Of a stretch of 64,000 bases of DNA, positions 16,752 through 47,714 are shown piece after piece. Origin of the DNA: Butyrivibrio sp. GTDB taxonomy: Bacteria > Bacillota > Clostridia > Lachnospirales > Lachnospiraceae. The notes below the pieces were generated by a model. It made no database searches. It had not been told where the DNA came from and worked only from the letters and a program-made list of their open reading frames with translations. Position 1 is the stretch's first letter, and every line of letters begins with the position of its first letter. Location of the stretch: positions 1 through 64,000 of the forward strand of contig JAILJR010000192.1 of assembly GCA_024694565.1 (NCBI GenBank), read 5' to 3'. The position numbers were made by a program, and so were the translations under genes.

Positions 16752-17906
16752 TCACTTCGTAATGTACTTGTCCACATCTGCCTGAATCTTATCGCTGTAT
16801 TTCTGTACGTCTGCTGTTACTTCATATTCTGCATCATCAAACAGGAACTGATGAAGCCACTTGACATTGCCCTTTAAGTCAACAGGAAGAACGCAGCTTC
16901 CCGCTTTGCCCATTGTACCTGTAGCACGCATTTCCTCATAAGGGAAGCCGCTGTTGTCAACAACACGGTAATTCGCTATGTTCTTAAGAAGCTCAAGTAT
17001 CTCGCTCAGATCAAGGGAGGTATAGGTCTCCTTAAATGCGCTGTTTGCAACTGCTTCAAGCTGTGAATAGCTCATCTTCTGCGCTTTGTCAAGGCATGCC
17101 ATGAGCACGGTCCTCTGCCTCTCGGCACGTTTGAAATCGTCACCCGCCGTGTATCTTATACGGCAGTAGGCTGTCGCCTGAAGTCCGTTAAGTGTCTGCA
17201 ATCCTGCGTTTGTAACGGGTGTATATTTGAGCTTCAGCTCCGTTGCCATTGTCGACTGGTAGTTGTTAAGATGCGGTATCTCAGCGTCAGTCAGCTCTAT
17301 CGGAACTCCTCCGAGTGCATCAACAACATCAGTAAGACCTCTGAATCCTATGGTTATGAAGTCCTCAATATCCATGTCAAGATTCATGTTCAGCATTGAA
17401 ATTGCCTGCTCGGGGCCACCCTGAGCATATGCTGCATTACATTTCGTGTAGGTGTCATTACTCAGGTTAAGATATGTGTCACGATATACAGAACAGAGTC
17501 TGATATCGCCGGTTGCATTGTTGATCGAAGCGATGATGATCGAGTCTGATCTGGTATTCTTGGTCAGCTCTTCCTCTCGTGAATCAACGCCGAAAAGTGC
17601 AAGATTGGTATAGCCAACCATCTGCTCATTAGTAGCAACGCCCTCGTTGATACTCTGAGAAATGACCTCCTCATTCATCTCAACCTTGCCGACCTTAGTG
17701 ACATCAACCTTGAAGAAAAGAGTATATGCCACATATACAAGTCCGCATGCGATCAGGATCTCCGCTGCCAGCAGAATAATCGCTCTGGTGTTGTTTTTCT
17801 TTTTTACCGGTGCAGCATCTGCCTCATATACAGGCTCAGGTCTTCTGTGCTGCGCAGGTCTTCTGTGCCCACTTCCCCTTGTGGGTCTGTCATCCATATT
17901 AGACAT
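16752..17906 (-). CDS. LytR-CpsA-Psr (LCP) family protein
   Basis: 'NLALFGVDSREEELTKNTRSDSIIIASINNATGDIRLCSVYRDTYL', 'DALGGVPIELTDAEI', 'GLQATAYCRIRYTAGDDFKRAERQRTVL'. Confidence 0.93.
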   Translation of the reverse strand: MSNMDDRPTRGSGHRRPAQHRRPEPVYEADAAPVKKKNNTRAIILLAAEILIACGLVYVAYTLFFKVDVTKVGKVEMNEEVISQSINEGVATNEQMVGYTNLALFGVDSREEELTKNTRSDSIIIASINNATGDIRLCSVYRDTYLNLSNDTYTKCNAAYAQGGPEQAISMLNMNLDMDIEDFITIGFRGLTDVVDALGGVPIELTDAEIPHLNNYQSTMATELKLKYTPVTNAGLQTLNGLQATAYCRIRYTAGDDFKRAERQRTVLMACLDKAQKMSYSQLEAVANSAFKETYTSLDLSEILELLKNIANYRVVDNSGFPYEEMRATGTMGKAGSCVLPVDLKGNVKWLHQFLFDDAEYEVTADVQKYSDKIQADVDKYITK

Positions 17907-18016: not shown

Positions 18017-19423
18017 TCAGTATGCATTCTTATTTACAAAACCATGCCGTATAGTTCCGATCATGATCTTGAGGTCGAATGCCATGCTCCAGTTCTCAAT
18101 GTAGTAAATGTCGTAGTCTATCCTCTTACGGATGGATGTGTCCCCTCTGTAGCCGTTGATCTGCGCCCAGCCCGTAAGTCCGGGTCTCACCTGGTGCTTG
18201 ACCATATATCTGGGTATCTGCTCCTTAAACTTCTCAACAAACTGAGGCCTCTCAGGTCTTGGGCCCACCAGAGACATCTGTCCGATAAAGATGTTAAAGA
18301 ACTGCGGCATCTCATCTATACTCGTCCGCCTCAGAAAAGCTCCGATCCCCGTAACTCTCGGATCGCCCTTCGTGGTCCAGCCCTTTTTCTCATCAGCAGC
18401 TGTCTGAACCTTCATGGTCCTGAACTTGTACATCATGAAGGGCACTCCGTTAAGACCTATTCTCTCCTGCTTGAAAATAATGGGTCCGGGGCTCGTAAGC
18501 TTGACCCCTATGGCAGCTGCTGCCATGATCGGTGAAAACAGTATGATCGCAAATAAAGATCCGATGATATCAACCAGTCTCTTGGAATATTTGTTGAACG
18601 AATTGGTAAGCGGAACATAGCGAATGTTTATGACCGGCAGTCCCTGAACATCCTCAGTGTATGGATTGCTCGGGAAAAGAGATGAATAATCCGGGATAAA
18701 CTTGGTGTGAACTCCGGATTTCTCGCACTTATCCACCAGCTCCTCCAGCCTGTCATAGTAGTCCAGCGGAAGCGTTATCGTAATCTCATCATAGTTGTTG
18801 TGCTCAAGATAATCTTCGAGCTGATCGATCTTTCCGACCACCTTCACGCCGTGATAGCTTGTACCAACCGGAACAAAATCATCAAGTACGCCTGCCACAA
18901 TATATCCCCACTGAGGGTTGTCCAGAATCCTGCTTATATACGCCTCAGCGGCTCTGGAATACCCTACAAGCAGGATATGCTTGATGTTATAGCCTTTTTT
19001 CCTTATATACCTCAGAAACTTCCTGAGAAGCCAGTGCGCAATAGTAGTCAGAACAATGTTCAGGATAAAGAAGATAAATATCATCGACCTGGAAAAGTCC
19101 GGCTGGTTGATTATGTACAGAACAACCAGAAAGCCGATGACGCCCATCACATTGGCCTGAACAATATCCACAAACTCATTCCATAGCCGCAGCGCCCTCC
19201 TTGAGGTATAGAGCTGCACCATGTAATAAAGAAGAAGATAACACGGAACAAGAAAATAGAGCGCAGAAAAGTAGACTTCCGGGGGGAGATGCCCTCCGGG
19301 GGCCTTATCTGCGAAAACCGATTCAAATTTTAAATAATAGGACAGCGCATAGGATCCGACCACCAAAATGCCATCAACTATGACATGTGCCCTATTTAAA
19401 TGCACCTGATTATCTTTGATCAC
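18017..19423 (-). CDS. Polyprenyl-phosphate sugar phosphotransferase (WcaJ/WbaP-like priming enzyme)
   Basis: N-terminal TM bundle and CoA-binding-like domain; C-terminal 'KRLVDIIGSLFAIILFSPIMAAAAIGVKLTSPGPIIFKQERIGLNG', 'VGPRPERPQFVEKFKEQIPRYMVKHQVRPGLTGWAQINGYRGD'. Confidence 0.93.
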   Translation of the reverse strand: MIKDNQVHLNRAHVIVDGILVVGSYALSYYLKFESVFADKAPGGHLPPEVYFSALYFLVPCYLLLYYMVQLYTSRRALRLWNEFVDIVQANVMGVIGFLVVLYIINQPDFSRSMIFIFFILNIVLTTIAHWLLRKFLRYIRKKGYNIKHILLVGYSRAAEAYISRILDNPQWGYIVAGVLDDFVPVGTSYHGVKVVGKIDQLEDYLEHNNYDEITITLPLDYYDRLEELVDKCEKSGVHTKFIPDYSSLFPSNPYTEDVQGLPVINIRYVPLTNSFNKYSKRLVDIIGSLFAIILFSPIMAAAAIGVKLTSPGPIIFKQERIGLNGVPFMMYKFRTMKVQTAADEKKGWTTKGDPRVTGIGAFLRRTSIDEMPQFFNIFIGQMSLVGPRPERPQFVEKFKEQIPRYMVKHQVRPGLTGWAQINGYRGDTSIRKRIDYDIYYIENWSMAFDLKIMIGTIRHGFVNKNAY

Positions 19424-19483: not shown

Positions 19484-20467
19484 TTAAATTGAAAGCGCCC
19501 GCCTTGCGCAATTTACCCACAGCTCAATCTGGAGCCGGAAAGCATTGAGCAATTCTGTCTTTCCGAACCTGACTTTTCTGTCAGAATGCTGTATTATCTT
19601 TTTAAGCCCGGATATAAGGCCCTTTACATGTGCCTTTCCAAGTCCCCTTTTTGAGTAAAACACATGCTTTATCAATAATCCGGCAATAATAAGCGGAAGA
19701 TTCAGAAGCATCTGCAATACCGGCATGTTCTTATATATCAGGTAAATATTGTTCCCAGCAGTCAGCTCAACCTTGAAATCGTTGTACCTTGAGCCGCTGG
19801 AGGCACTGGCAGCATGATAGACTATCGCCCCCGGCTCCATTACGTTTGCATAGCCCTTGAGCCTTGCCCTGTAGCCGATATCGATGTCCTCAAGGTAGCA
19901 GAAGTGCACATCGTCAAAATATCCCACTTCATCGAAGCACTCTTTCCTGTAGATAGCAGCGCCTGCACATGCGGCTGTGATGGCCTCCCTCACCGAAAAC
20001 CTGTGACAGTCCTGATCTCTTGCCGGCGAAAATGCCCATCCAAGCGAACAGTACAGATCTCCGGCATCGTCGATATTATGGGGTTCCTTCATCTGCAGAA
20101 GCTTTGCCTGTGCGGAAAAGAGCTTCTTGTTTCTCTCCATGATGTATATGAGCCGCTCAACAGCCCTCTCGTCACACATAGTGTCGTTGTTGAGCAAAAA
20201 GACATATCTGCTGTCCGCATCCTTTATTCCAACATTTACCGCATTGGCAAAGCCGGTATTCTCGGGAAGCTCTATCACATGTACCTCCGGAAACCTCTTT
20301 CGCAAAAACTCCACACTTCCGTCAACAGAGCCGTTGTCGACTACTGTTACGGAAAAGTTCTTGAAGCTCTGCTTGCGAAGGCTCCGCAGGCATCCGTCCA
20401 GATGATTTTTCCCGTTATAGTTTGGTATTATTACTGTCAGCATTTCCATTGACAGGTTTCCTCTCAT
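19484..20467 (-). CDS. GT2 family glycosyltransferase
   Basis: 'LTVIIPNYNGKNHLDGCLRSLRKQSFKNFSVTVVDNGSVDGSVEFLRKRFPEVHVIELPENTGFANAVNVGI', 'EVGYFDDVHFCYLEDIDIGYRARLKGY'; start may be the internal MEMLTV. Confidence 0.92.
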   Translation of the reverse strand: MRGNLSMEMLTVIIPNYNGKNHLDGCLRSLRKQSFKNFSVTVVDNGSVDGSVEFLRKRFPEVHVIELPENTGFANAVNVGIKDADSRYVFLLNNDTMCDERAVERLIYIMERNKKLFSAQAKLLQMKEPHNIDDAGDLYCSLGWAFSPARDQDCHRFSVREAITAACAGAAIYRKECFDEVGYFDDVHFCYLEDIDIGYRARLKGYANVMEPGAIVYHAASASSGSRYNDFKVELTAGNNIYLIYKNMPVLQMLLNLPLIIAGLLIKHVFYSKRGLGKAHVKGLISGLKKIIQHSDRKVRFGKTELLNAFRLQIELWVNCARRALSI

Positions 20468-20626: not shown

Positions 20627-22006
20627 TCAGATTCTCAAAACCATCCCAGGGTCCCACAGGATACGGTATCCAAGCTTTTTTACCTCACCGGCAAAATCAA
20701 GGCTCAGCCTCCTTACCTCCTCGGGGCTTTTGCCTGCAAGGAGCAGCTCGCCCTCCCTGTATTTTTCTTCCGTTAACCTTTCAAAAACTGGTATAAGCTC
20801 TTTTCGCAAAAGTACACATCGAAGATCCACCGCAAAGGCGTCCTGAGTAAGAACTGCCCTGTGCTGCAGTCCTCCGCTGTAGCCTTCAAAGAGCCCCTCA
20901 AAGACTACCCTTCCTTCCTTTGTGTACATTCCACCTGCCAGCCTGTTCCTGCGGTTTAACAGCTTTCCTCCCACACACCCGATGTCGGGTCTTGCGCTAA
21001 AGACATCCGGCTCGTACTCAACCCTGTAAAAGCCCACATGCGGAAGCTGTTCCACCCTTCCGCTTATTCCGTTTTCAGAAAGAAAGGCCTCAAGCACTCT
21101 CTGTCCGGCTTCATAGGCATATGTCTTGCTCCCCGGATTGGCAGCCGTCGACTGGCTGTGACACCTCCAGTGGTACAAAACCCTGTCGATATGCACTATC
21201 TGCGCCCCTGAATCAGGCGTCTTAAGAGCTGCCTCGGCACATGCCCGCAGGATCAGGTCATAGTCCTGTGCACCGTCAAAGCTGCCCCTCTCCTTTAATC
21301 TCTTTATCACATCTGCCCTTATCATCGTGAAATGACATATATAGTTATTGGACAGTAAATAATCCATGTTAAAAGAAGGCTTTTGATGGTGCTCATAAAA
21401 CCTTCCCGTATCAGCGTCAAACTTATCCTCATCGGAGTAGATAAGCCGGATCGGACAGTCAGAAAAACGCGAAAGCCTGTTCTTTTTCATGCTCCTTCTG
21501 ATCACGCGGGACATCTCGTAGAGAGCATCGCTTGTCAGAAGGTCGTCGTGGTCAAGAAGGCCTATATAATCACCGGTGGCTTTTTCAATGCCGCGGTTGG
21601 TATTTTCAGAAATCCCGTCGTTTTTTCCAAGATAAAAGTATTTGATCCTCGGATCAGTCTTTGTGTACTCTTCTGCAGCCGCAAGCGGTGATGGCGAAGC
21701 ATCCGCAAGGACCAGCTCCCAGTTCCCGTAGCTCTGCGCCGAAACAGATTCTATCATTTCCCGAAGATACTTTTCCGGGGTATTAAAAAGAGGTACCACA
21801 ATGCCAAAACGCACCGTGTTACCCGCTTCTGCAAGAAGTCTATACTCCTTTTTCTGCTCCTTTAAGGCTGCATCTGAGACCGGGACAAAAGTATAATTCT
21901 CATTCCGGTTGTCATGGAGTCTTTCAAGGGCAGCAAAAAATGCGGCCCTCAAACCATTGCGCTTATAATATGCAATTGTCTTTTGGACCGCATTTTTAAT
22001 TCCCAT
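20627..22006 (-). CDS. GT2 family glycosyltransferase with a divergent C-terminal module
   Basis: 'VRFGIVVPLFNTPEKYLREMIESVSAQSYGNWELVLADASPS', 'YIGLLDHDDLLTSDAL'; C-terminus resembles only the second half of another GT2 domain. Confidence 0.88.
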   Translation of the reverse strand: MGIKNAVQKTIAYYKRNGLRAAFFAALERLHDNRNENYTFVPVSDAALKEQKKEYRLLAEAGNTVRFGIVVPLFNTPEKYLREMIESVSAQSYGNWELVLADASPSPLAAAEEYTKTDPRIKYFYLGKNDGISENTNRGIEKATGDYIGLLDHDDLLTSDALYEMSRVIRRSMKKNRLSRFSDCPIRLIYSDEDKFDADTGRFYEHHQKPSFNMDYLLSNNYICHFTMIRADVIKRLKERGSFDGAQDYDLILRACAEAALKTPDSGAQIVHIDRVLYHWRCHSQSTAANPGSKTYAYEAGQRVLEAFLSENGISGRVEQLPHVGFYRVEYEPDVFSARPDIGCVGGKLLNRRNRLAGGMYTKEGRVVFEGLFEGYSGGLQHRAVLTQDAFAVDLRCVLLRKELIPVFERLTEEKYREGELLLAGKSPEEVRRLSLDFAGEVKKLGYRILWDPGMVLRI

Positions 22007-23866: not shown

Positions 23867-25957
23867 CTACTGAACCCGAAGGCTGGAGTAGCCTTCTACG
23901 TTCAGGGAAAAATCACTTCTGTCCAATGAGAAGTTTGGATTGTAATAGGGGTCTCCTTTGTCCAGAACTGCTTTCCACTTTTTGCGGAAGTGTTTGGCTT
24001 CACCCTTGTAGCGCTCGGCGTTCCTGCCTTCAAGGTCGAGCCCTCTTGACAGGGACTCGTAGTGGTAGAGCTCAGCAAAGGGCGTAAATACGTTGAGATA
24101 CCCCTTTTCGCGAAGCTTCAGGCAGAAGTCCACGTCGTTAAGGCTAACCTCAAAGCTCTCATCAAAGCCGCCAACCTCGTCATACTTAGCCCTTGAGACC
24201 ATAAGGCATGCACCCGTCACAGCACTTACATCCTGTGCGTAGCAGAGCCGTCCCATGTAGCCGAGGTTCATTCCCGCCTGTCCGTAGTGAGAATGACCAG
24301 CAGTCCTGTGGGCACCGAGCTTTAATACCACGCCTGCATGCTGGATCTTTCTGTCGGGGAAGTAGAGCTTGGCACCTACAGCTCCCACATCACTCCTCTG
24401 GGCATACATAAGGAGCTCCTCCATCCAGTTCACGGTGATGACCTGAGTGTCGTTATTAAGCAGGATGACAAATTCACCTGTGGATTGGGAGACACCGTAA
24501 TTGACAACCGCAGAGTAGTTGAACGCAGGCTTCTGATCACCTGTCTTTTCCCTCACATAATCGTTGTAATTGACAACCCTGACTATATCCTTGAGTGCGC
24601 CTGTCCCGAGCTCCTCATAATAGCCTCTTATCTCTGCACCTGTGGAATTATTCTCAACGACAATGATCTCATAGTTGTCATAGACAGACTTCTCATAAAT
24701 CGAGTCAATGCACCTCTTAAGGTCCTCTGCGTGCTCGCAGTTGGGGATGATCACAGATATCTTTGGTGTGCCCTTTACCTCATAGGTTATCTTGAAAATA
24801 GTCTCAAAGGCTCTGGTACTTGTGATCTTGAAGTGATCATAACCGTGCCGGCGGAGGTGGTCAGCTACTGCCCCCTTCGCTGCATCTATAGCATAGGGCT
24901 TGGCATTTATGTTTGACGCAACAGATCCCGCATGGCTTCTCCAGTAATACAAAAGCTTCGGCACATGAACAATATGCTGCGCCCTGTCTGTCAGACGCAG
25001 TATCATGTCATGATCCTGGCTTCCGTCAAACCTGGGTCTGAAAAGCTCCGTGCCATCAAGGAGCTCTCTCTTAAATACACTGAAATGACAAATATAATTA
25101 TTTGCCCTCAGGTTGTCGATCGCATAATCAGGCTTGAAGTGCATGGTTATCATCCTGTTGATGTCATCACCCTTAAAGGTGGTCTCGTCGCAGTAGATGT
25201 AATCTGCATTCTCTTCATTTATTGCCTTGATATACCAGTAAAGTGCCTCCGGATGAAGGATGTCATCATGATCAAAAAGACCTATGTACTCTCCCTCTGC
25301 AAGTGTCAGACACTGATTTGTATTGCCCGAAATTCCCTCATTCTTTGCAAGCTTCTTATATACGATCCTGCAGCTTCCGTCAGGCCTTATTGCTCTCTTA
25401 TCGGCCTGGTATTCCTTTACAATCGCACTGACCTGTCCTACATGTTCATTGTCAGATCCATCTGCAAGACACAGCTGCCAGTTGCTGTAGGTCTGGTCAA
25501 GTACCGAGCTGATCATATCCCTGAGAAACTTTTCCGGGGTATTGTAAAGCGGCACCAGAATAGACACCATTGGCATCTTCTCAAAGGTCGCGCTCTCCTG
25601 CTGCCTTCTTGTCTCCTCAGACGGAAAGCTCTCGGTCCCGTAGTGGGTCATCGCCCTTTTTTCAATCTGCTTGTACCTGATCTTGGCAATAACACCCTTT
25701 AAAGATCCCTGATTCCTGACTCTGTCCCTCTGTCTTATCACCCAGTGCATTGCATTTCTGGCCGGTGTAGATGCCTTCCATATCGGGTTATTCTTTATGC
25801 GGTTCAGCTTAAACTCAAGCTCCTGGTTCTTGTCCTCAAGCTCAGCAATCCTGCCCGCCAGGTCCGCAGCCTTGAGCTTCTCCCGCTCATACGCGGCCTT
25901 ATAATCCATCTCTGACATATCCAATCTCCATTCATCTTTTTTCTTATCAGGAAACAA
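23867..25957 (-). CDS. Large GT2 protein with tandem glycosyltransferase domains
   Basis: 696 aa; first domain 'VSILVPLYNTPEKFLRDMISSVLDQTYSNWQLCLADGS', second 'KISVIIPNCEHAEDLKRCIDSIYEKSVYDNYEIIVVENNS' plus 'SLNDVDFCLKLREKGYLNVFTPFAELYHYES'. Confidence 0.92.
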   Translation of the reverse strand: MFPDKKKDEWRLDMSEMDYKAAYEREKLKAADLAGRIAELEDKNQELEFKLNRIKNNPIWKASTPARNAMHWVIRQRDRVRNQGSLKGVIAKIRYKQIEKRAMTHYGTESFPSEETRRQQESATFEKMPMVSILVPLYNTPEKFLRDMISSVLDQTYSNWQLCLADGSDNEHVGQVSAIVKEYQADKRAIRPDGSCRIVYKKLAKNEGISGNTNQCLTLAEGEYIGLFDHDDILHPEALYWYIKAINEENADYIYCDETTFKGDDINRMITMHFKPDYAIDNLRANNYICHFSVFKRELLDGTELFRPRFDGSQDHDMILRLTDRAQHIVHVPKLLYYWRSHAGSVASNINAKPYAIDAAKGAVADHLRRHGYDHFKITSTRAFETIFKITYEVKGTPKISVIIPNCEHAEDLKRCIDSIYEKSVYDNYEIIVVENNSTGAEIRGYYEELGTGALKDIVRVVNYNDYVREKTGDQKPAFNYSAVVNYGVSQSTGEFVILLNNDTQVITVNWMEELLMYAQRSDVGAVGAKLYFPDRKIQHAGVVLKLGAHRTAGHSHYGQAGMNLGYMGRLCYAQDVSAVTGACLMVSRAKYDEVGGFDESFEVSLNDVDFCLKLREKGYLNVFTPFAELYHYESLSRGLDLEGRNAERYKGEAKHFRKKWKAVLDKGDPYYNPNFSLDRSDFSLNVEGYSSLRVQ

Positions 25958-25980: not shown

Positions 25981-26020
25981 TGTTATAATTCAGTTGCCAG
26001 CCATCCTGAGCAGTTTATCA
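25981..26020. repeat. Solo arm related to the 9341-9544 inverted-repeat element
   Basis: TGTTATAATTCAGTTGCCAGCCATCCTGAGCAGTTTATCAC matches the right-arm complement TGTTACAATTCAGTGGCCAGGCAAGCCTGAGCAGTCAGTCAC. Confidence 0.65.
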
Positions 26021-28150
26021 CCTTGATCCCCTTATTTTTAATATGTTTGGAACCCAGTTGATCAGTTTCAGACGGCTGGTCTTGTCGATAGCCAGCATTC
26101 CAATCTGATAGTAGCCAGGCGGAAGCGCCCCCTTCTCTATTCGCAGCTTATATCCCGTCAGATCCACATTGACCTGATCTCCGAGCCTGACCCTGATGTC
26201 AGGACGATACCAGATATAAGGGTCAAAGGAATATACCTTTTCTCCAACAGGACCTGCTCCGTCCTCGTTCCGTGCTACAAGACGAAGAAGAAGCTTCTTT
26301 TCAAAAATTGCGTTGTCCGAGCCTATGACGAAGGAATATCCCTTGAGGTAATACCCCTCCTCACAGCCTGTGGCAGTAACTCCGTACAGCCAGTTGTCCA
26401 TGGTTCCGTTGTATTCACAGCCAACTCTCAGGCACTGATCCTCTCTTGCCCCGCGTATGCCCTTTTCATGGATTGAGACCGATGCATAGGGCAGATCCTC
26501 AACCGGAGTGTAGTCCTCCCTTGGTATGATTGCCGATATAGTCTCATCCTCCGTCAGGTGCGGACTGTAGAAAGGATCCTCGTTGTAGAGGTGGGAGTGC
26601 CTTGTCATGAGAAGGTCACCCTCCCGGGCAAGTCTTTCCATCTTTTTGGGATCAAGGTTGTCAAGTCCGCGGGTCAGCGACTCATGGTGATAGAGATAGA
26701 TGTGATTGCAGCACACATTGTAATACCCGCGTTCATGCATCTGATAGCAGAAATCAACATCATTGAAGGCAACCTTGAGATCCTCGCAAAAGCCCCCTAT
26801 GTCATTAAACTTCTTCCTGCTGATCATGAGGCAGGCAGCCGTGGAGCCTATTGTGTTGTGTATTCCCCTGTTATAGCCAAAATAATGGTTTTTGCCGTCG
26901 TGCATCTTCTGGAGCTTGTGCACGGGGCCACGCCTTACATTGGCAATTCCCGCGTGCTGGATCAGATCGCTGTCAGGGTAGATGAGCTTTGCCCCTACCA
27001 CGCCGACATGCTTAAGCTGAGCCTGTGACAGCATCTCCCGAAGCCAGCCCTCCCTGGCACACTCAATGTCATCATTCATGAAAAGCAGGAACTCACCCAT
27101 CGAGTTCCTTGCCCCCTGATTGCACATGGACGAAAAATTAAAATCCTGAAGCTTGTAGATATAATTTATCTTTACAAGCCCGTTCTTGCGTTCAGCCCGC
27201 GATGCATAAACGCCGTATTTTACACGGTTCGCTGCGCTTGAGCCGTTGTCGATGATAACTATGTCGTATCTGATGTCATCACCGGCTGTTGTGCTTATTA
27301 TGGAATCAAGACACTGCTTGAGTATCTCGGGATGATCCCTGGAAGGTATGATTATGCTCACGGTTGCAGGCTTTAAAAGCATATGCCTCGATGAATGGAA
27401 GCTTCTCCCGTAAAAGACATCCTGCTCCGGATCTCTGTGAAAGAGCACTTCCCTGATGTGCCCGATCGGAAAATCAAGTCCGGTCCTCTTTCCGAAGGCA
27501 TGTTCATGTATTGCCAGCATGCAGAACATTACATCAGCTGACAAAAGAGATGCTTCAAGCCCCGCCTGCTCAACAGACCCTCGCTTTCCGGATGTACCTC
27601 CGAGCATTTTGACCGCATTGTCATATTCCGGTGCGGAATCATGCATCACACCTGACCTGCAGGCAAAAAAGCTTCCAATGTAAAAAGCATTCAGATATGA
27701 ATCCGGAGACCAGTCCGGCTTAAAATACGGATGGATGTATTTTCCACCCTTGCCGCTCTCATCCTCATCACCATAGACCACGTTGTGCTCCGGGTGCGCT
27801 ATGAAATACTGCTTAACGACCTCAGCGGCTTTTTTAACCAGCTTTCCCTTTGGACTTACAAAGAGATAAACTGTATTCTCATCACCCCTGTCATCCTGTA
27901 CATCCCATATCTTCCCATAAGGAACTACCTTTACCTCCGGCTCGGGAAGCTTGTGCGGAATCAGCTCTCCGTTAGCAGCTGTCTCATACTGAATAGGAGC
28001 TTCACCCGACACAGGCGGCTCTTTTTCCACTTCTTTCTGCCATCTGTCGTAGGCAGACGACTTCGCGGCCAGAAGCCTGTTGTATTTTGTTGTACTCTTT
28101 TTCACCAGAGCTGCCTTGGCCAGCTTCTTAAACATTCCCCTTACCTTCAC
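26018..28150 (-). CDS. Large GT2 protein with a C-terminal beta-rich domain
   Basis: 'TVSIIIPSRDHPEILKQCLDSIISTTAGDDIRYDIVIIDNGSS', 'VAFNDVDFCYQMHERGYYNVCCNHIYLYHHESLTRG'; ~170-aa C-terminal region beyond the GT fold. Confidence 0.9.
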   Translation of the reverse strand: MKVRGMFKKLAKAALVKKSTTKYNRLLAAKSSAYDRWQKEVEKEPPVSGEAPIQYETAANGELIPHKLPEPEVKVVPYGKIWDVQDDRGDENTVYLFVSPKGKLVKKAAEVVKQYFIAHPEHNVVYGDEDESGKGGKYIHPYFKPDWSPDSYLNAFYIGSFFACRSGVMHDSAPEYDNAVKMLGGTSGKRGSVEQAGLEASLLSADVMFCMLAIHEHAFGKRTGLDFPIGHIREVLFHRDPEQDVFYGRSFHSSRHMLLKPATVSIIIPSRDHPEILKQCLDSIISTTAGDDIRYDIVIIDNGSSAANRVKYGVYASRAERKNGLVKINYIYKLQDFNFSSMCNQGARNSMGEFLLFMNDDIECAREGWLREMLSQAQLKHVGVVGAKLIYPDSDLIQHAGIANVRRGPVHKLQKMHDGKNHYFGYNRGIHNTIGSTAACLMISRKKFNDIGGFCEDLKVAFNDVDFCYQMHERGYYNVCCNHIYLYHHESLTRGLDNLDPKKMERLAREGDLLMTRHSHLYNEDPFYSPHLTEDETISAIIPREDYTPVEDLPYASVSIHEKGIRGAREDQCLRVGCEYNGTMDNWLYGVTATGCEEGYYLKGYSFVIGSDNAIFEKKLLLRLVARNEDGAGPVGEKVYSFDPYIWYRPDIRVRLGDQVNVDLTGYKLRIEKGALPPGYYQIGMLAIDKTSRLKLINWVPNILKIRGSR

Positions 28151-28290: not shown

Positions 28291-30459
28291 TCACTCGTCG
28301 TCGAATTCATCCCCATAAGAATCATCCCCACGTCGTGAAAGAAGCTTTTTGCCTATCCTGCCAAAGATATTTTCCTTCTTCGGCTCCTCTTTGGGTGCAC
28401 TGCTGTGGATCGATGCCACAACAGCATCTGCGCTGCTCTTTGGAATAAGTGTTGTCAGGAGTCTGAGCCTTAGCTGGTTTTTCTCCTGGACACTCAGCTT
28501 GTTGCTTGTCAGACCAAATTCAATATTGGGGTCATTCGTGTTAAATACCATGCTGTCGTCGGATATCCACTCTCCGTTGACCGGATGGATATCAATGCTG
28601 ATATCATTTTCCGAAATCTGCTCTCCGTTCCAGCTCGCATCACGAATAGTGACCATACATGGCGAAAAAGCGGGATCAACGCGCACTACCCTGCAGTCGG
28701 AACTAACCTTTATATTGAGGCTTATCTCATTCTTGTCATTGTAGCGCTCCTTAGGAAAGATCGAATCATCCTCCGAGTATCCGTCTCCCTCGTCAAGATA
28801 GATCTGCACCGTATTGTCAGCTCTGACGCCCGTGTCGGAACCCTGTATCTCTTTTGGCACCTCTGACTTTTTACCGATGCTCTTCCAGATCTCAACCATT
28901 GATTTGCGGTTGCCCGTCACATATTTCTGGAAGGCATATTCTTCCTTGAGAAGAATATCTATGTCCTCTCCGGTTATCTTCAGCTTTTCATATACAGGTC
29001 TTGGGTCGAAGCTCTCCCTCTTCCTGTCCTCGAGCCTGTAGCAGTAGAGCGCCCTCCACACCTGTTCCTTCACCGGAATGCACTTTCCGTAGGTCCACTC
29101 ATAGTCTATTATAGTCCAAATGGGACCATTGACCAGAATATTTGAAAAGATGAGATCGTAATCCGACACCGGATATTCCTGATTGTAGCCTATCCTTGTA
29201 ATGTAATCCCTGATTAGCTGGTAAAAGCCCTCCCGGTCATCCTTCTCAAGACATTCATCCAGGAGCGATGAGAGCGGCACGCCGTTTACAAAAGAGAAAA
29301 CCGCACACCCTTCCTCTTCATCTATCTGACAGTCATTGATCTCTATGTTGCCGCCCCTGAACCTGTCTACCAGTCCCTCATAGGCAGCACGAATACTGTA
29401 GATATGATCCAGCGCCGCATCTGTGAGAGGATATTTTCTGATGGTAAGATGCCCTTCCTCATCCTTTACAATGTCGGTCCTTATCTTAAAATCATCTATC
29501 CTGTCGTTGGAATACTTACTGTAGACGGTATCAAAGCCGGGTCCTAAGATGACCTCAAACGAGTTGGCAAATTCACCGTACAGCCCGTCAGCTATCATGG
29601 TCTCAAATGCATGCTTCTCATTGAAGAGGACCATTCTGTCCCTGTCATAGTTCCTGACATTGTCCGACAGCTCTCCGTAGGACGGGAAGTAGTCGTCGGA
29701 ATGAAGCACATTCATCAGCTTGTAATCGGGATACGGATAGTAGAAGTGGTAATCCTCCATTCCGCACCTTTTGAAAATATTTATCAGGCCGCGCCTTGAG
29801 AAGGTCCTGACGACACTGTCCGCGGGATACCCCTCGATCCCTGAAAAATATGTACTGAGATGATCCTCAACGCAGCCGGCAAAATACTTAAGTCCAAGTC
29901 TGTTCTCAATTGCGATGACGATCCTGCCGTCGTCCTTTAAATGATTTTTGAGCATCATAAGAAATTTCTCATAGGGGTTGTCCGAACCGATATATCCCTG
30001 ACCATATTCAAAAACTCCGATGAGAAAGATATAATCAAAGTCATCAGGCAGGTCAGGCTCAATATCCCTGAAGTTGCCCACGTGAATGGTGACATTGTCA
30101 TACTCCGCATTCCTGGTCGCATTAATTTCAGAGCGCCTCTTTGAAAGGTCGCATGCCACAACCTCTCCGGCCTTGCGGGCCAGGGTTCCTGTAACAGCGC
30201 CGCACCCTGCTCCAACCTCCAGAACCTTTGCTCCCGGATCCATTGGAATCCACTCTACAATATTCCCCCTAAGGTCAGAGAGATGGTAGAGTATGGGCCA
30301 CGATTTGCTCTCCTCAATTATCCTCTGATAATCCTCTTTTTTATACTTCCTGACAATCTCAAGAAGATCATTCTCCACATTTCCGTCACTGTAGAGATCA
30401 ACTCCCGAATAGTGTTTAAAATTCAGGCAAACGCCTCCTATCATCATATCATCCTGCAT
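28291..30459 (-). CDS. SAM-dependent methyltransferase with central kinase/phosphotransferase-like region (WbdD-like architecture)
   Basis: Class I MT 'AKVLEVGAGCGAVTGTLARKAGEVVACDLSKRRSE', 'FDYIFLIGVFEYGQGYIG'; downstream 'CAVFSFVNGVPLSSLLDE', 'SDYDLIFSNILVNGPIWTIIDYEW' resembles an APH/kinase catalytic loop; C-terminal beta-rich region. Confidence 0.8.
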   Translation of the reverse strand: MQDDMMIGGVCLNFKHYSGVDLYSDGNVENDLLEIVRKYKKEDYQRIIEESKSWPILYHLSDLRGNIVEWIPMDPGAKVLEVGAGCGAVTGTLARKAGEVVACDLSKRRSEINATRNAEYDNVTIHVGNFRDIEPDLPDDFDYIFLIGVFEYGQGYIGSDNPYEKFLMMLKNHLKDDGRIVIAIENRLGLKYFAGCVEDHLSTYFSGIEGYPADSVVRTFSRRGLINIFKRCGMEDYHFYYPYPDYKLMNVLHSDDYFPSYGELSDNVRNYDRDRMVLFNEKHAFETMIADGLYGEFANSFEVILGPGFDTVYSKYSNDRIDDFKIRTDIVKDEEGHLTIRKYPLTDAALDHIYSIRAAYEGLVDRFRGGNIEINDCQIDEEEGCAVFSFVNGVPLSSLLDECLEKDDREGFYQLIRDYITRIGYNQEYPVSDYDLIFSNILVNGPIWTIIDYEWTYGKCIPVKEQVWRALYCYRLEDRKRESFDPRPVYEKLKITGEDIDILLKEEYAFQKYVTGNRKSMVEIWKSIGKKSEVPKEIQGSDTGVRADNTVQIYLDEGDGYSEDDSIFPKERYNDKNEISLNIKVSSDCRVVRVDPAFSPCMVTIRDASWNGEQISENDISIDIHPVNGEWISDDSMVFNTNDPNIEFGLTSNKLSVQEKNQLRLRLLTTLIPKSSADAVVASIHSSAPKEEPKKENIFGRIGKKLLSRRGDDSYGDEFDDE

Positions 30460-31870
30460 AATCTTCCACCTTACATGTCGATTCCATATCGAAGTAGCCC
30501 ACGGTATTTTTATCTGATACTACGGTTACATTAAGTGCATCATACAATCTGTGATATACGGTAAAGTCATTCTTTTCAAAGCCTGTCACTCCGAAGCTCA
30601 GAAGGTACTCGCCCCCCTGAAGAGTCATCTTCTGGGTAAAAGAGATGTCCTTCACATCACCGCTGCTGACCGGTTCAAGAAAGGCCTTCTCAACCATAGA
30701 GTTGGTTCCTGTTATCTCAATGCCCATGATATTTTTGAAGGTAAAGGCAAATATCGGTGCAGCAACATCCCTCTTAAAGCGAACTCTCATATGTACGGTA
30801 AACTCTGTTCCCTTTATTACGGAGTTCGACCTTACGCCCCTGTCGTCCGTCACCCAGAATTCCTCGATTGCAGCTGCGCCATCTCCGTATTCCAAAGTGT
30901 CCGGGTTTTCCGTATGCTGCTTATCCGGCCTTTCTGCGGCTTCATTTCCCTTCGGACTATCTGCTTCTTTGCCCTTTTGTGCCTTGCCGGATTTCTTTTT
31001 ATCTCCCGGTCCGGTATTTTTCACAGAAGCTTCCTGATAGGGCTCATCCTTCTTCCCTGCCTTTCTTGCGGCAGCTTCCCTGACTTCCTCATCGTCTAGA
31101 AGGTTTTGCACATCGCTCTTTGGAAGCGGGAACTGACCGACAAGTACCTGCTTGTAGATATCAATCATTTTCTTGGGAGTACCCTCGCCGAGCAGGACTC
31201 CCTGATTGAGAAGCACAGCCCTGTCGCAGTATTTGCTGATGCTTGAAAGGTCATGGGATACGAAGAGTATGGTCTTTCCCTGCTTTTTGAACTCCTCGAA
31301 TTTGTGGTAGCACTTTGCCTGGAAAAACACATCGCCAACTGACAGCGCCTCATCTACTATGAGAATCTCAGGGTCAATGTTGATTGCCACTGCAAATGCA
31401 AGTCTGACAAACATACCGCTTGAATACGTCTTCACCGGCTGGTAAACATAGTCGCCGATGTCAGCAAATTCAAGGATTGCAGAGAGCCTTCTGGTAATCT
31501 CTTCCTCGGAAAAGCCAATCATCATTCCGTTTAAATAAATATTGTCAATGCCGTTGTATTCCATGTTGAAGCCGGCACCGAGCTCTAAAAGAGCTGAAAT
31601 ATGGCCGTCCACGCTGACCTCACCCTGTGTAGGGGTAAGCACCCCGGTGATGATCTTTAAGATTGTTGATTTCCCTGAGCCGTTGGTACCAATAATGCCA
31701 ACAGTCTCTCCCTTTTTTACCTTGAGATTTACATTATTGAGGGCAAGATGCTCCTTGAACCTTCTGCCCATTGACAGCCCCAGGGAATCCTTCAGCCTGT
31801 CGATTGGCTTGTCATAAAGCTTATAAACTTTTGTGAGGTTCTTCACCTCTATCGCAATGTCTTTTTCCAT
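30449..31870 (-). CDS. Polysaccharide ABC exporter ATP-binding protein (Wzt/TagH-like) with C-terminal Wzt-type domain
   Basis: Walker A 'GIIGTNGSGKSTILKIITGVLTPTQGEVSVDGHISALLELGAGF', 'YSSGMFVRLAFAVAINIDPEILIVDEALSVGD'; long charged linker and C-terminal beta-domain 'FAFTFKNIMGIEITGTNS...GGEYLLSFGVTG'. Confidence 0.92.
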   Translation of the reverse strand: MEKDIAIEVKNLTKVYKLYDKPIDRLKDSLGLSMGRRFKEHLALNNVNLKVKKGETVGIIGTNGSGKSTILKIITGVLTPTQGEVSVDGHISALLELGAGFNMEYNGIDNIYLNGMMIGFSEEEITRRLSAILEFADIGDYVYQPVKTYSSGMFVRLAFAVAINIDPEILIVDEALSVGDVFFQAKCYHKFEEFKKQGKTILFVSHDLSSISKYCDRAVLLNQGVLLGEGTPKKMIDIYKQVLVGQFPLPKSDVQNLLDDEEVREAAARKAGKKDEPYQEASVKNTGPGDKKKSGKAQKGKEADSPKGNEAAERPDKQHTENPDTLEYGDGAAAIEEFWVTDDRGVRSNSVIKGTEFTVHMRVRFKRDVAAPIFAFTFKNIMGIEITGTNSMVEKAFLEPVSSGDVKDISFTQKMTLQGGEYLLSFGVTGFEKNDFTVYHRLYDALNVTVVSDKNTVGYFDMESTCKVEDYAG

Positions 31871-31888
31871 AGTATTCCCTGTATTCCA

Positions 31889-32887
31889 TCACAGAACATC
31901 GGCAAAATGAGGCTTGCTGCGCTTGAAAATCAGTGCTCCAAAGCAGAATGCAGCGACCACAAATATCCAGAAGTATGTGGATGAGTAGAAGTGCTCAAAA
32001 AACCATGTATCTCCGTAGATGGTGTTTCTGAAGCCCTCCACTATGTATGTCATTGGATTTAACTTGATTATCCACTTGTACCTGTCAGGTACGATATCAA
32101 TATTCCAAAGAATAGGGGTCGCCCACTGGAAGAGCTGCAGGCCTATGGATATAATCTGCAGAAGATCCCTGAAGAACACCACAATCGAGCAGGTAGCGTA
32201 GCTTAGCGACAGCACCAGGATAAACTCACAGCCCACATAGTATATGAACTGAAGCCAGTAAATAGTCGGATAATACCCGTAAATAATTGCTATGAGCATG
32301 AGCACCCCAATGAAGAAGATGTGAATGAACATGGCTGCAATTATCTTGATAATGGGCAGGATGCTTATCTTGAAAAGAACCTTCTTTACAAGATAATTGT
32401 ACTCAAGAAGGGACGTGGTCCCGTTTGTGAGTGCCTCAGTAAAGAAAAACCAGGGCACAAGTCCGGCCGTCAAAAACAGGACGTATGGTACCTCCACACC
32501 TCCTGAAACAGCCTGAGCCCTGGACTGGAATATTACATCAAAGACAATATAGTACATGCAGACAGTGACCACCGGCTGAGCCAGCGCCCACACTATCCCC
32601 ATGTATGAGCCGGCATATCGCTTCTTGAAATCATTTATTGCCAGCCTCTTTATGAGCTTCCTTGAGTTGTATAACTCCAGAGGAAGGACCATAAGCCTGT
32701 CATACCACAAAAAGACAAGGATGCAGCTTATACCGATAAGCAGGCATCCACATACCTTTTTGAGCAGCTCCGTATCCGGATCCGCCAGCGGATTATCATG
32801 AAAGATAAGCAGCAGCGCCAGGATGAGTGCCAGGCTGTAAAAAATACAAAGACCTCTCGATTTGGGGAGCCTTTTTGTCATACTCAT
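31889..32887 (-). CDS. Polysaccharide ABC exporter permease (Wzm/TagG-like ABC-2)
   Basis: 'NDFKKRYAGSYMGIVWALAQPVVTVCMYYIVFDVIFQSRA', 'VPYVLFLTAGLVPWFFFTEALTNGTTSLLEYNYLVKKVLFKISILPI'; ATG at 32887 overlaps the rmlC stop (ATGA). Confidence 0.93.
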   Translation of the reverse strand: MSMTKRLPKSRGLCIFYSLALILALLLIFHDNPLADPDTELLKKVCGCLLIGISCILVFLWYDRLMVLPLELYNSRKLIKRLAINDFKKRYAGSYMGIVWALAQPVVTVCMYYIVFDVIFQSRAQAVSGGVEVPYVLFLTAGLVPWFFFTEALTNGTTSLLEYNYLVKKVLFKISILPIIKIIAAMFIHIFFIGVLMLIAIIYGYYPTIYWLQFIYYVGCEFILVLSLSYATCSIVVFFRDLLQIISIGLQLFQWATPILWNIDIVPDRYKWIIKLNPMTYIVEGFRNTIYGDTWFFEHFYSSTYFWIFVVAAFCFGALIFKRSKPHFADVL

Positions 32888-33432
32888 CAATACTCCTTGA
32901 TTCCTCCCCACTTTGTATCCTTCTCAGAAAGATTCAGCTCTATACCATCCCACAGAGGCCACTCAACTCCGATATCAGGATCGTTCCAGATAAGACCACC
33001 CTCATCATTTGGGTGATAAAAGTCAGAACACTTATATGCAAACTCAGCGTATTCGGAGAGCACAAGAAAGCCGTGTGCAAAGCCCTTGGGTATAAAGAAC
33101 TGCTTCTTATTCTCTGCTGTGAGAGTTACACCAAACCATTTCCCGAAGGTCTTTGAGTCTCTTCTGAGGTCGACAGCAACATCGAAAACCTCACCGTTTA
33201 TGCAGCGAACAAGCTTATCCTGCGGAAACTTTTTCTGAAAATGAAGACCGCGGAGCACACCGCGTTTACTTGCCGACTGGTTATCCTGCACAAATTCCAT
33301 GTCTATGCCGGCTTCGACAAAGTCGTTCTTATTATAGGTCTCGACAAAATAGCCTCTGGCGTCGCCGAACACAGTCGGGGTGATCACCTTCAGGCCTTCA
33401 ATTTCACAAGTTTCAACAGTTATTTTTCCCAT
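32887..33432 (-). CDS. rfbC: dTDP-4-dehydrorhamnose 3,5-epimerase
   Basis: 'DARGYFVETYNKNDFVEAGID', 'FVQDNQSASKRGVLRGLHFQ', 'FFIPKGFAHGFLVLSEYAEFAYKCSDFY'. Confidence 0.95.
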   Translation of the reverse strand: MGKITVETCEIEGLKVITPTVFGDARGYFVETYNKNDFVEAGIDMEFVQDNQSASKRGVLRGLHFQKKFPQDKLVRCINGEVFDVAVDLRRDSKTFGKWFGVTLTAENKKQFFIPKGFAHGFLVLSEYAEFAYKCSDFYHPNDEGGLIWNDPDIGVEWPLWDGIELNLSEKDTKWGGIKEY

Positions 33433-34498: not shown

Positions 34499-35368
34499 TT
34501 ACAGTCCGTTTGCCACCTCTACAAGGTAGTTGCCGTAGTCTGTCTTCATCAGCGGCTCAGCCAGCTTAAGAAGCTGCTCCTTGTCGATAAAGCCACGCTT
34601 ATAGGCTATCTCTTCTATACAGGATATGTACAGGCCCTGTCTCTTCTGGAATGCACAGACAAAATCAGATGCATCAAGAAGCGAGTCATGGTTTCCTGTA
34701 TCAAGCCATGCAAAGCCTCGGCCCATGGTCTCAACCCTGAGCTCGCCGCGGCTTAGATACTCGTTATTTATGCTGGTGATCTCAATTTCGCCTCTGGAAG
34801 AGGGCTTTACATTTGCAGCAATCTCAACAACCTTGTTGTCATAGAAGTAAAGTCCGGGAACCGCATAATTACTCTTTGGATGCTCCGGCTTTTCCTCTAT
34901 GCTGATTGCCTTGCCGTTCTCGTCAAATTCAACAACGCCGTAAGCCCTTGGATCCCTGACATAGTAGCCAAATATTGTAGCTCCGCTCTCTCTGGCTGCA
35001 ACCTCACGAAGGAGCCTGGAAAAGCTCTGGCCGTAAAAGATATTATCGCCAAGAACCAGCGCAACAGAATCACTTCCAATAAAATCCGCACCGATAATAA
35101 ATGCATCGGCAAGTCCCCTCGGCTTGTCCTGAACTGCGTAGCTGAACTTCATGCCAAGCTGCTCACCCGTGCCGAAAAGCTCCTCAAAGACCGGCAGATC
35201 CCTTGGAGTTGATATAATAAGCACCTCTCTGATACCTGCAAGCATAAGCGTTGAGAGAGGATAATAGATCATCGGTTTGTCATAAACAGGCATCATCTGC
35301 TTGGACATTGCCCTTGTAAGAGGATAAAGACGTGTTCCCGATCCTCCGGCCAAAATAATACCTTTCAT
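34499..35368 (-). CDS. rfbA: Glucose-1-phosphate thymidylyltransferase
   Basis: '[46 protein letters not shown]', '[19 protein letters not shown]'; start at internal ATG 35368. Confidence 0.95.
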
Positions 35369-35382
35369 AGGTTGCTCCTTTC

Positions 35383-36468
35383 TTAGCGGTTTGAGTACAT
35401 CTTTTCGTAGTACTTCTCGTAGTCGCCGCTGGTTACGTGTTCCATCCACTCCTGGTTGTCAAAGTACCACTTGATGGTCTTGCGGATACCATCCTTGAAC
35501 ATGGTCTCAGGCTCCCAGCCGATTTCTGCCTTGATCTTGTCAGGAGCGATTGCGTAGCGCCTGTCATGTCCCTTTCTGTCTGCAACATATGTAATAAGGT
35601 CATAGTTCAGATGCTCTTTTCTCGGATCGGAATCATCCAGCTCTTCCCTGAGGATATCAATAATAGTCTTTACAATCTCAATGTTCTGCTTCTCATTGTG
35701 TCCGCCTACATTATAGGTCTCAAACAGGCGTCCCTTCTCCTGCACCATATCGATAGCCTTGGCGTGATCCTCAACATAGAGCCAGTCGCGGACATTCTTG
35801 CCATCACCGTATACAGGAAGCTTCTTGCCCTCAAGAGCATTGTGTATGATGAGAGGAATGAGCTTCTCCGGAAACTGGAAAGGTCCATAGTTGTTTGAGC
35901 AGTTGGTAATGTTGGCCGGGAACCTGTAGGTGTCCATATATGCCTTCACCAGCATGTCTGAGCTTGCCTTGCTTGCTGAGTAAGGGCTGTGAGGTGAATA
36001 AGGTGTTGTCTCATAGAAAAATGCTGTTGGATCATCATCCAGTGAACCATATACCTCATCTGTAGAAACATGGAGGAACTTCTTGCCCTCCTTAAAGGTT
36101 CCGTCAGGGAGCTCCCATGCCTTCTTTGCAGCATTGAGCATTGTAGCTGTTCCAAGAACATTGGTCTGCACAAACACCTCAGGGTTAACGATTGACCTGT
36201 CCACATGACTCTCAGCCGCAAAATGAACAACCCTGTCTATATCATTTTCTTCAAAAATCCTGTTGATGGCATCCCTGTCGCAGATGTCTGCCTTGATAAA
36301 CGTATAATTCTCTCTCCCCTCAACATCCTTGAGGTTCTCAAGATTCCCCGCATAAGTAAGCACATCAACATTGATTATCCTTATCTCGTTGTCATACTTC
36401 TTAAACATGTAATTAATATAATTTGACCCAATAAACCCAGCTCCTCCGGTAACTAAATAAGTTCTCAT
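35383..36468 (-). CDS. rfbB: dTDP-glucose 4,6-dehydratase
   Basis: '[19 protein letters not shown]', '[26 protein letters not shown]', '[11 protein letters not shown]', '[25 protein letters not shown]'. Confidence 0.95.
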
Positions 36469-41500: not shown

Positions 41501-42251
41501 CAGCCCGCTCTACACCGGAGGAATTCTTTATGGCACCTATGATCCTTGCTCCAAGGCCTTCATCCGAACCATCATAGTCATCATAATCTCTCCTGCCCGG
41601 TCCATAGTCGTCGTAGTCATAGTCGTCATCATCCCGGTAGTCGTCATATTCCTCTTCATAATCCGGCTCATCACCGCGCTCATAGGCTTCGCGCTCCAGA
41701 TCCTCAGAGCTTTTTGTAAAGCGTCCCTCTTCCTCAAAGTCGCCATCCGCATAGCGGCTCTCCTCTTCGTCAGCATACTTCTCAGAGTCATCTTCTGCAT
41801 ACCGCTCAGAATTGTCTTCAGCATACCTTTCTGAATCCACTTCCGCATACTGCCTGGTGTCGTCTTCAGCATACCCATCAGAGACCCCTGCGGCATAACG
41901 CCCGTCTTCCTCATATGAGTACTGCCCGGCCCTGCCATTATCAGGGTCGTCTTCATAGCGCTCGCTCACGGCATCTCTATTATCATCATAATAATTCCCG
42001 CTCGCAGCGTTATCAGAGTCATCATCGTAACGCTCATCCGGGATATCACCGGGATCGTCAGAGTGGTCAGCTTCTCTGTCATATGCATTATGACCGGCCT
42101 CTACATCTCCCCCGACATAGTCGTCATCCTCTGCATAAGCTTTGTCACCGCACTCGTCATCGTCGTCATATTCAAGATCGAGGTCAATGATGTCCTCATC
42201 AACCATTTGACTCTTAACCTTCTTTCCAAACAGATTGATACTTTTTTTCAT
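38502..42251 (-). CDS. Membrane-anchored GH25 lysozyme with BIG2-like repeats and acidic N-terminal tail
   Basis: C-terminal GH25 'MGIDVSKWNGSIDWNKVKNSGVQFVIIRCGYRGSSEG...FPIYLDVEAS...YDMWQYTS'; choline-binding-type repeat 'GWQTIDGKTYYYDKDGKPVTG'; several BIG2-like repeats; internal TM 'AAAAVAVVLLAGSIFTFSFYS'; start at ATG 42251. Confidence 0.9.
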   Translation of the reverse strand: MKKSINLFGKKVKSQMVDEDIIDLDLEYDDDDECGDKAYAEDDDYVGGDVEAGHNAYDREADHSDDPGDIPDERYDDDSDNAASGNYYDDNRDAVSERYEDDPDNGRAGQYSYEEDGRYAAGVSDGYAEDDTRQYAEVDSERYAEDNSERYAEDDSEKYADEEESRYADGDFEEEGRFTKSSEDLEREAYERGDEPDYEEEYDDYRDDDDYDYDDYGPGRRDYDDYDGSDEGLGARIIGAIKNSSGVERAAAAVAVVLLAGSIFTFSFYSKALSKTEELGSFSNVGSTFGVSEVVGQSGLIAIADAERAKAMAAAMIEENAAAQAQEADTPEVKGEERELEEEDENKNVTVKVSLTSVKSDMKIKFTNAANGKLISGVHFEVTVVNPDGTTITYDDHDMDGIIYKNNLTSGTYKITPVALSEDYANYTMDTRTESLSVKGTVAMKKVDVSNEVKKESEVNAAAEDTQVQTVVESQLKDTVEYVESTKTPEAPAKTENTQQTQTQTQTQTQTQTQPETTQTQPETTPAAPTTQGTVAGEGEFEFQEIDKSAIVDPTLSGKLERSGENGTGAFTTVVQMKNYALSGEVLTAKTGTVSNDRAFTASSIAKAVLRAPAVATFTDEQLQQLVELYNQQNAGNAEGAGQTQGQIQLDTTSITLEVGGFGKIQASAPGAVSFSSEDNSIVQVAGDGTVAGISEGTTAVRVSSEGCADAGVVVTVKKAGQQTQQTTDGTFSCKTKSLTLKVGEVGKIAATAGKPIIYQSQDESIAIVTADGQVGGNKEGKTKIIVYTDNEHFAEVEVKVVNANQSNMSLSTSQLKMTVGSLDFIAVTGPKSATFTSSNQLVAIVDENGQVAAMSEGTANITVSAEGYNDAVVKVTVVKKADKDIKVKKTEITTAKGRTVKIELEDSSIKAKFTSGNTQVATVAADGTVKGVGLGISQITVSADGYNDAKVGVKIIDNTTQLKDNDGNTVYVKNADGTYRIATVDDYFNGTKFYTKKSSGSTSTNYKYTGWQTIDGKTYYYDKDGKPVTGEQVIQGAKYTFDKNGVLTTASGTMGIDVSKWNGSIDWNKVKNSGVQFVIIRCGYRGSSEGALIEDPKFRTNIQGAINAGLRVGVYFFTQAINEVEAVEEASMVLDLVSGYSLSFPIYLDVEASNGRADSISVSQRTANIKAFCGTIQNAGYRAGVYANKTWFTEKINVSELTNYKIWLAQYAASVTYTKSRYDMWQYTSKGKVSGISGDVDMNILYNN

Positions 42252-42463
42252 AACGTCCCCATTTCCTTCAGTGAAACCGAACAATACACTAACATCAACA
42301 TGTAGTAAATACTCGCAAATCCGCTCTAAATCTAGTAATACAGACTTATTCTATACTACATCTTAATGTGATAATAACATTTAAATTGTATACATTCAAC
42401 CTATTTCATGAAAAATTGAATTAATTTTCAGAAAACTGTCACATGTGTCACATGAATAAAATT

Positions 42464-47681: not shown

Positions 47682-47714
47682 ATTAGATTCAAGATATTCG
47701 TTGATATGTCCTTA

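Follow-up and report, generated by a model that had tools for sequence, protein, structure and literature searches.

Chain capping with phosphate plus methyl as a prelude to export is known from Gram-negative bacteria. In Escherichia coli O9a, whose glycan is a mannan, WbdD has a methyltransferase and then a kinase in one chain, a trimeric coiled-coil ruler, and a C-terminus that recruits WbdA, and it adjoins a Wzt with a cap-binding domain; its catalytic residues are D351, N356, and D369 (PMC3482155). In ORF6 of Klebsiella pneumoniae O7, a methyltransferase is followed by a kinase that lacked annotation (D441), an Ig-like CBM, a coiled coil, and a pair of GT2 domains; this enzyme was shown to add phosphate, then methyl, at O3 of the terminal rhamnose (Kelly et al., 2024; PMC11231755). 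The residues of its SAM site are Y28, Y66, G91, G93, E112, and Y158, and its orthologues were found in alpha- and gammaproteobacteria, cyanobacteria, and one archaeon, with none in Gram-positive bacteria (PMC11231755).

Capped-chain export in a Gram-positive organism is not new in itself, because the rhamnose glycan that Geobacillus stearothermophilus transfers onto its S-layer protein carries a 2-O-methyl cap and is served by a Wzm-Wzt pair (PMC2943079). The methyltransferase involved there, WsaE, has no kinase. Butyrivibrio proteoclasticus has been described as Gram-positive, and rhamnose is among the sugars of the exopolysaccharides of Butyrivibrio strains (PMC2914790). Here we describe a Butyrivibrio locus in which a methyltransferase-kinase adjoins Wzt and Wzm.

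The locus and the domains of the 722-aa protein

The window, that is, the whole stretch of 64,000 nucleotides of Butyrivibrio sp. DNA that was analysed, carries the genes listed in Table 1. The sequence-only reading had placed the 722-aa ORF, Wzt, and Wzm in it correctly: Wzm lies upstream of Wzt, and the start of the 722-aa ORF lies inside the end of the Wzt ORF, with an overlap of 11 nt (30449-30459). Of the two candidate starts of Wzm, that reading had chosen the ATG. A homologue of RmlD was found on a separate contig (C120) of the same genome (PF04321, 1.2e-90). The nearest named relatives of the 722-aa protein are from Butyrivibrio and are up to 72% identical to it over its length; among the cultured strains that carry the gene are CB08, NC2007, and XPD2002.

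Table 1. Genes, domains, and motif of the locus, with the basis of each assignment
Feature	Coordinates	Strand	Basis
722-aa methyltransferase-kinase, predicted chain terminator	28291..30459	-	ORF, domains, homology to O7-type terminators
Class I SAM methyltransferase domain, residues 1-300	29560..30459	-	Pfam
Protein-kinase-like domain, residues 305-515 (K342, D435, N440, D452, E454)	28915..29547	-	kinase-only profile; invariant residues
Beta-sandwich domain, residues 546-672, possible glycan-binding module	28444..28824	-	AF2 pLDDT 87; Ig-like CBM reported behind the ORF6 kinase (PMC11231755)
Short basic C-terminal helix, residues 699-710, possible membrane contact	28330..28365	-	AF2, low-confidence stretch
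Wzt, 473 aa: ABC ATPase and predicted C-terminal cap-binding domain	30449..31870	-	PF00005, PF14524
Wzt_C domain, Wzt residues 326-462, after ABC_tran	30485..30895	-	PF14524 (E 1.5e-38, 132 bits, cut-off 30.4)
R441-L-Y443-D444 of Wzt, candidate cap-type signature	30539..30550	-	RYD conservation; Trp in methyl-cap Wzt
Wzm permease	31889..32911	-	PF01061 (ABC2_membrane); start GTG 32911 or ATG 32887
RmlC, dTDP-4-dehydrorhamnose 3,5-epimerase	32887..33432	-	PF00908 (4.5e-74)
RmlA-like nucleotidyltransferase	34499..35449	-	PF00483
RmlB-like dehydratase	35383..36468	-	PF16363
710-aa GT2 glycosyltransferase	26018..28150	-	PF00535
696-aa predicted polymerase: short N-terminal heptad region (20-57), two GT2 domains	23867..25957	-	likeness to fused relatives
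GT2 glycosyltransferase	20627..22006	-	PF00535
GT2 glycosyltransferase	19484..20467	-	PF00535
Polyprenyl-phosphate sugar-1-phosphate transferase (initiating enzyme)	18017..19423	-	PF02397 (4e-70), PF13727
LytR-CpsA-Psr (LCP) ligase, predicted peptidoglycan attachment	16752..17906	-	PF03816 (6.6e-32)

A class I SAM methyltransferase, a kinase-like centre, and a beta-rich tail had been proposed for the 722-aa protein, and each was confirmed. Pfam places the methyltransferase at residues 79-182 (PF08242, 7e-11; PF13649, 2e-9), and E81, G83, G85, Y58, and Y152 are nearly invariant in the family alignment. Pfam and NCBIfam assign no kinase family to the central domain, and among 39 members this domain gave only one weak APH and one weak choline kinase match. 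A profile confined to the central domain and built from 39 kinase regions reached significant scores in the PDB with protein kinases only (JAK1, 3e-5; GCN2, 3e-4; PKR, 1.5e-3), in alignments covering the beta3 Lys and the D-x4-N catalytic loop. None of the 159 sequences, split genes included, departs from K342, D435, N440, D452, and E454; the motifs singled out in the sequence-only reading hold D435 and N440 (SDYDLIFSN) and D452 (IIDYEW). The central region is kinase-like in profile and in fold, and its catalytic residues do not vary.

An AlphaFold2 model built on a 40-sequence alignment had a mean pLDDT of 88.9. When this model was compared with the PDB by Foldseek, the first four ranks were taken by the four WbdD crystal structures, aligned over ~500-580 columns with both domains in one alignment (best match 4azt, E 7e-11, 553 columns). 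Because the whole-chain TM against WbdD is low (0.19/0.30, rmsd 18.7) and matches to the methyltransferase alone follow closely (6e-9), the model agrees with WbdD in the order of the domains and gives no support for their relative placement. The tail is predicted to be a beta-sandwich without a confident fold match in the PDB (the best, E 0.009, was set aside), and short helices only follow residue 672. Neither a heuristic heptad scan nor the model revealed a coiled coil in the 722-aa protein, including the part after the kinase, and the protein has no membrane segment.

Relationship to O7-type terminators and to WbdD

The protein had been called WbdD-like, a term that holds for the order of the folds and for the logic of the system, but neither for the sequence family, in which the relatives are O7-type (K. 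pneumoniae ORF6-O7), nor for the coiled-coil ruler. Direct membership in the WbdD family was considered and rejected: blastp returned nothing significant and the hhalign alignment (probability 41%) did not extend beyond 86 columns, all in the SAM fold, so the sequence likeness is confined to the generic SAM fold. E. coli HS WbdD has D351, N356, and D369 at nearly the spacing of D435, N440, and D452. The Butyrivibrio protein shares with O9a WbdD the methyltransferase-then-kinase order and an adjoining Wzt whose Wzt_C is similar to that of O9a (2r5o), whereas the trimeric ruler and the WbdA-recruiting C-terminus are absent and the predicted product is a rhamnose glycan instead of mannan.

In contrast, homology over both domains was found to proteins of Citrobacter braakii pF217-3 (28%, E 8e-42) and Pseudomonas asturiensis pCC1524 (26%, E 6e-47). 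The former is encoded in the order rmlBACD-Wzm-Wzt-terminator-GT; the latter is a 1457-aa fusion with GT2 domains at its end, and fused relatives in this respect resemble ORF6 with its two C-terminal GT2 domains. All six methyltransferase residues of ORF6 occur in the Pseudomonas protein as the same letters at the same positions, and ORF6 D441 is two positions off (D443). Through this relative, the SAM-site residues and the catalytic Asp of the 722-aa protein fall in register with those of ORF6, as Y23, Y58, G83, G85, D104, and Y152 in the methyltransferase and D435 (D-x4-N), which aligns with Pseudomonas D443 as the equivalent of ORF6 D441, in the kinase. The link to O7 was drawn from the published ORF6 residue numbers together with these two related plasmid loci. 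A search of E. coli genomes for an O7-like locus gave nothing but ABC ATPase DNA among the matches listed.

The 722-aa protein also has the methyltransferase, unannotated kinase, and beta domain in the same order as ORF6, a predicted rhamnose-containing glycan, and the Wzm-Wzt-terminator order seen in the O7-type relatives. It differs in belonging to a Gram-positive Lachnospiraceae, in being unfused to a polymerase, in having no coiled-coil ruler, and in the predicted attachment of the glycan to peptidoglycan as against LPS in K. pneumoniae O7. Because the coiled coil after the beta domain is absent, it is, judging from its sequence, a relative or variant of the O7 type rather than a full member.

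Some relatives fuse methyltransferase, kinase, and glycosyltransferases in one chain of 1238-1890 aa. The 696-aa enzyme, encoded two genes downstream of the terminator, shares 58.6% identity over 572 aa with the GT2-GT2 end of one of these fusions (L042) and 38.6% with the Pseudomonas fusion. The existence of these fusions suggests that terminator and polymerase are functionally linked. The heptad stretch that the heuristic scan found in the 696-aa enzyme is present in the fused relatives as well, and since no heptads follow the kinase of the 722-aa protein, a ruler, if there is any, would lie on the polymerase side.

The Wzt C-terminal domain and its association with the kinase

The C-terminal domain proposed for Wzt is a genuine Wzt_C domain: in addition to the PF14524 match, a profile built on 51 loci hits three jelly-roll structures (2r5o, 7k2t, and 5hno), and among solved Wzt_C domains E. 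coli O9a (2r5o) scored best (86 bits, E 1.9e-23), followed by Aquifex (39) and Raoultella (27). R133, Y135, and D136 of this domain, R441, Y443, and D444 in the numbering of Wzt, do not vary among the 51 loci, including the two Gram-negative ones. The R-x-Y-D (RYD) motif was found in 143/145 Wzt proteins linked to a methyltransferase-kinase and is absent from 27 of 31 Wzt_C copies outside this set (30 from genomes without a methyltransferase-kinase match and one from a second locus of the present genome). The Wzt of E. coli O9a, which handles a methylphosphate cap, reads DRRYD, and Trp occupies the Arg position in the Wzt_C of the methyl-cap systems of E. coli O8 (IAI1 locus) and Aquifex aeolicus, in the latter of which the methyl of the cap is stacked against Trp362 (PMC9445017). 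One RYD-bearing Wzt (L198) has no detectable methyltransferase-kinase nearby. In our Wzt_C tree all RYD copies fall to one side of a branch with a weak support of 58, and the association of motif and kinase may therefore reflect common descent and not independent events. RYD thus marks a lineage, in agreement with cap type, and does not represent a set of independent origins.

Of 299 Lachnospiraceae genomes, nearly all of different genera, 152 had a methyltransferase-kinase match (1e-10) and 176 had Wzt_C; in a 300-genome sample of the phylum, five matches at 1e-20 lay outside the family. The co-occurrence of the two, a check suggested in the sequence-only reading, proved very strong, with both in 146 genomes, the methyltransferase-kinase alone in 6, Wzt_C alone in 30, and neither in 117 (Fisher p 7e-46, relatedness ignored; counts are of genomes and not of independent events). 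Three of the four Wzt_C-only genomes with the same Wzt_C subtype have a diverged methyltransferase-kinase adjoining. Wzt_C lies upstream on the same strand within 6 kb of 113 of 121 placed methyltransferase-kinase hits and within 1 kb of 104 (median gap, 74 nt), and the order Wzm-Wzt-methyltransferase-kinase is kept in nearly all loci. Homologues are also contained in three unannotated "Bacteriophage sp." records of human faecal origin, which most likely represent stray bacterial DNA.

Proposed pathway, alternatives, and significance

From the observed domains, catalytic residues, synteny, Wzt_C subtype, fusions, and O7 homology, we infer the cap chemistry, the sugar, the order of the reactions, and LCP ligation: in our judgment the 722-aa protein is likely to be an O7-type terminator that places a methylphosphate on the chains of a rhamnose-containing glycan, which is exported by the ABC transporter and probably ligated to peptidoglycan by LCP. 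The sequence-only reading had suggested capped-chain logic of this kind in a Gram-positive lineage, and the computational evidence supports it. That reading had named two grounds on which it would fall, and neither applies: the central region is kinase-like, and the Wzt_C domain is genuine and matches jelly-roll structures by profile. The initiating transferase, GT2 enzymes, rml genes, and LCP gene lie in one cluster, and the simplest pathway would run from initiation through elongation, capping, and export to ligation, gene content being what is observed. The linked phosphosugar transferase would initiate the chain on polyprenol phosphate, and the linked GT2 enzymes would elongate the polyprenol-linked glycan at the cytoplasmic face. 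The kinase domain would then phosphorylate the non-reducing terminal sugar, probably rhamnose, and the methyltransferase domain would methylate the terminal phosphate. The resulting methylphosphate would halt elongation and serve as an export ticket, to be bound by the R-x-Y-D Wzt_C, which would load the chain into Wzm-Wzt. Enzymes of the LCP family join wall glycopolymers to peptidoglycan (PMC7831098), and the linked LCP enzyme probably attaches the exported chain in this way.

The cap might instead be phosphate alone, or something else other than methylphosphate, with the kinase terminating the chain and the methyltransferase acting elsewhere or in some lineages only. Phosphorylation by itself suffices for termination in E. 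coli O9a (PMC3482155), and whereas the kinase residues are invariant in all sequences, a few members (L045 and L048) have an eroded SAM motif, so that methylation cannot be universal in the family. We nevertheless consider such a cap unlikely, because the methyltransferase is intact in the 722-aa protein and most of its relatives, because O7-type homology predicts methylation of the phosphate, and because the two genes adjoin where they are split: in 20/20 split loci, picked for having a separate methyltransferase gene, the kinase ORF directly follows that gene. That a methyl group is the whole cap, as in E. coli O8 or with Geobacillus WsaE, and the kinase-like domain inactive, has a Gram-positive precedent in the 2-O-methyl rhamnose cap exported by Wzm-Wzt (PMC2943079), but is made very improbable by the invariant kinase residues and by a Wzt_C of the RYD type, methyl-cap transporters being of the Trp type.

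Gram-positive rhamnans bear internal phosphate decorations, e.g., glycerol phosphate, and the enzyme could be imagined to decorate internal residues of the glycan, leaving the chain end untouched and Wzt_C to recognise something else. However, the glycerol phosphate of the Streptococcus mutans rhamnan is added after export (PMC11754754), the 722-aa protein is without a membrane segment and genomically tied to Wzt_C, and its O7 relatives modify the non-reducing end; we give internal decoration hardly any credence. Methylphosphate capping of the chain end remains our preferred reading.

In the literature searched, we found neither a methylphosphate cap nor a kinase linked to Wzt for any Gram-positive bacterium, Lachnospiraceae included. 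Relative to that literature, what is new is an O7-type methyltransferase-kinase in Gram-positives, with about half of the sampled Lachnospiraceae genera having one, together with a terminator that has no coiled coil of its own and the correspondence of RYD and Trp in Wzt_C. A wider proposal, which we find plausible and put forward tentatively, is that about half of these genera make methylphosphate-ended wall glycans, the first in Gram-positives, whose length is determined by some means other than a ruler in the terminator, and that R-x-Y-D versus Trp is a general code for cap type (phosphate or methyl). A terminator without a coiled-coil ruler would also call for another account of chain-length control. 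If the proposal is true, the one-position rule (Arg versus Trp in Wzt_C) would make cap type testable from genomes alone, there would be a concrete end group to seek, and the retention of Wzt_C by these ABC transporters would be explained. A termination mechanism described for Gram-negative O antigens would then be central to the way in which a major Gram-positive family of the gut and rumen builds its surface glycans.

Wzm-Wzt pairs and predicted caps

The genome that holds the window carries a second Wzm-Wzt pair (L002, contig C240 of G000), and its Wzt_C domain lacks the R-x-Y-D motif; a single strain may therefore export two glycans that differ in their ends. The pair at L198 (G295, contig C74) has the motif, with no methyltransferase-kinase detectable downstream, and is either an orphan or misassembled. 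Two methyltransferase-kinase members (L045 and L048) retain intact kinase residues and have a degraded SAM-binding motif; they are candidates for a phosphate-only cap. Methyltransferase-kinase homologues with 38-48% identity are encoded by MT839147, MT836085, and MT836982, three contigs of human faecal origin that are filed as "Bacteriophage sp.", carry no annotation and are probably bacterial DNA.

Other genes of the window

The MBOAT acyltransferase is adjoined by a 376-aa protein without a Pfam match, in a region close to DUF6077 and DUF6056 membrane proteins; this is a possible O-acylation and side-chain module.

Coordinates of the features discussed
Feature	Position	Description
Extended Wzm	L047:6671-8053	N-terminal hydrophobic segment and ~150 additional residues
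Extended Wzm	L147:3529-4926	as L047
Extended Wzm	L152:3156-4547	as L047
Extended Wzm	L153:3528-4925	as L047
Extended Wzm	L162:513-1901	as L047
1260-aa protein	window 38502-42284	long, acidic, repetitive N-terminus; Big_2 domains; choline-binding repeat; GH25 lysozyme domain
MBOAT acyltransferase	window 47715-49184	within 46551-49184, with the 376-aa protein
Methyltransferase-kinase member	L045:9490-11514	
Methyltransferase-kinase member	L048:9151-12963	

Extended Wzm permeases

The additional residues of the L047 permease are similar to the beta tail of the methyltransferase-kinase (E 8e-4), and those of L153 are weakly so. Given this likeness, such a module would sit extracellularly at the channel.
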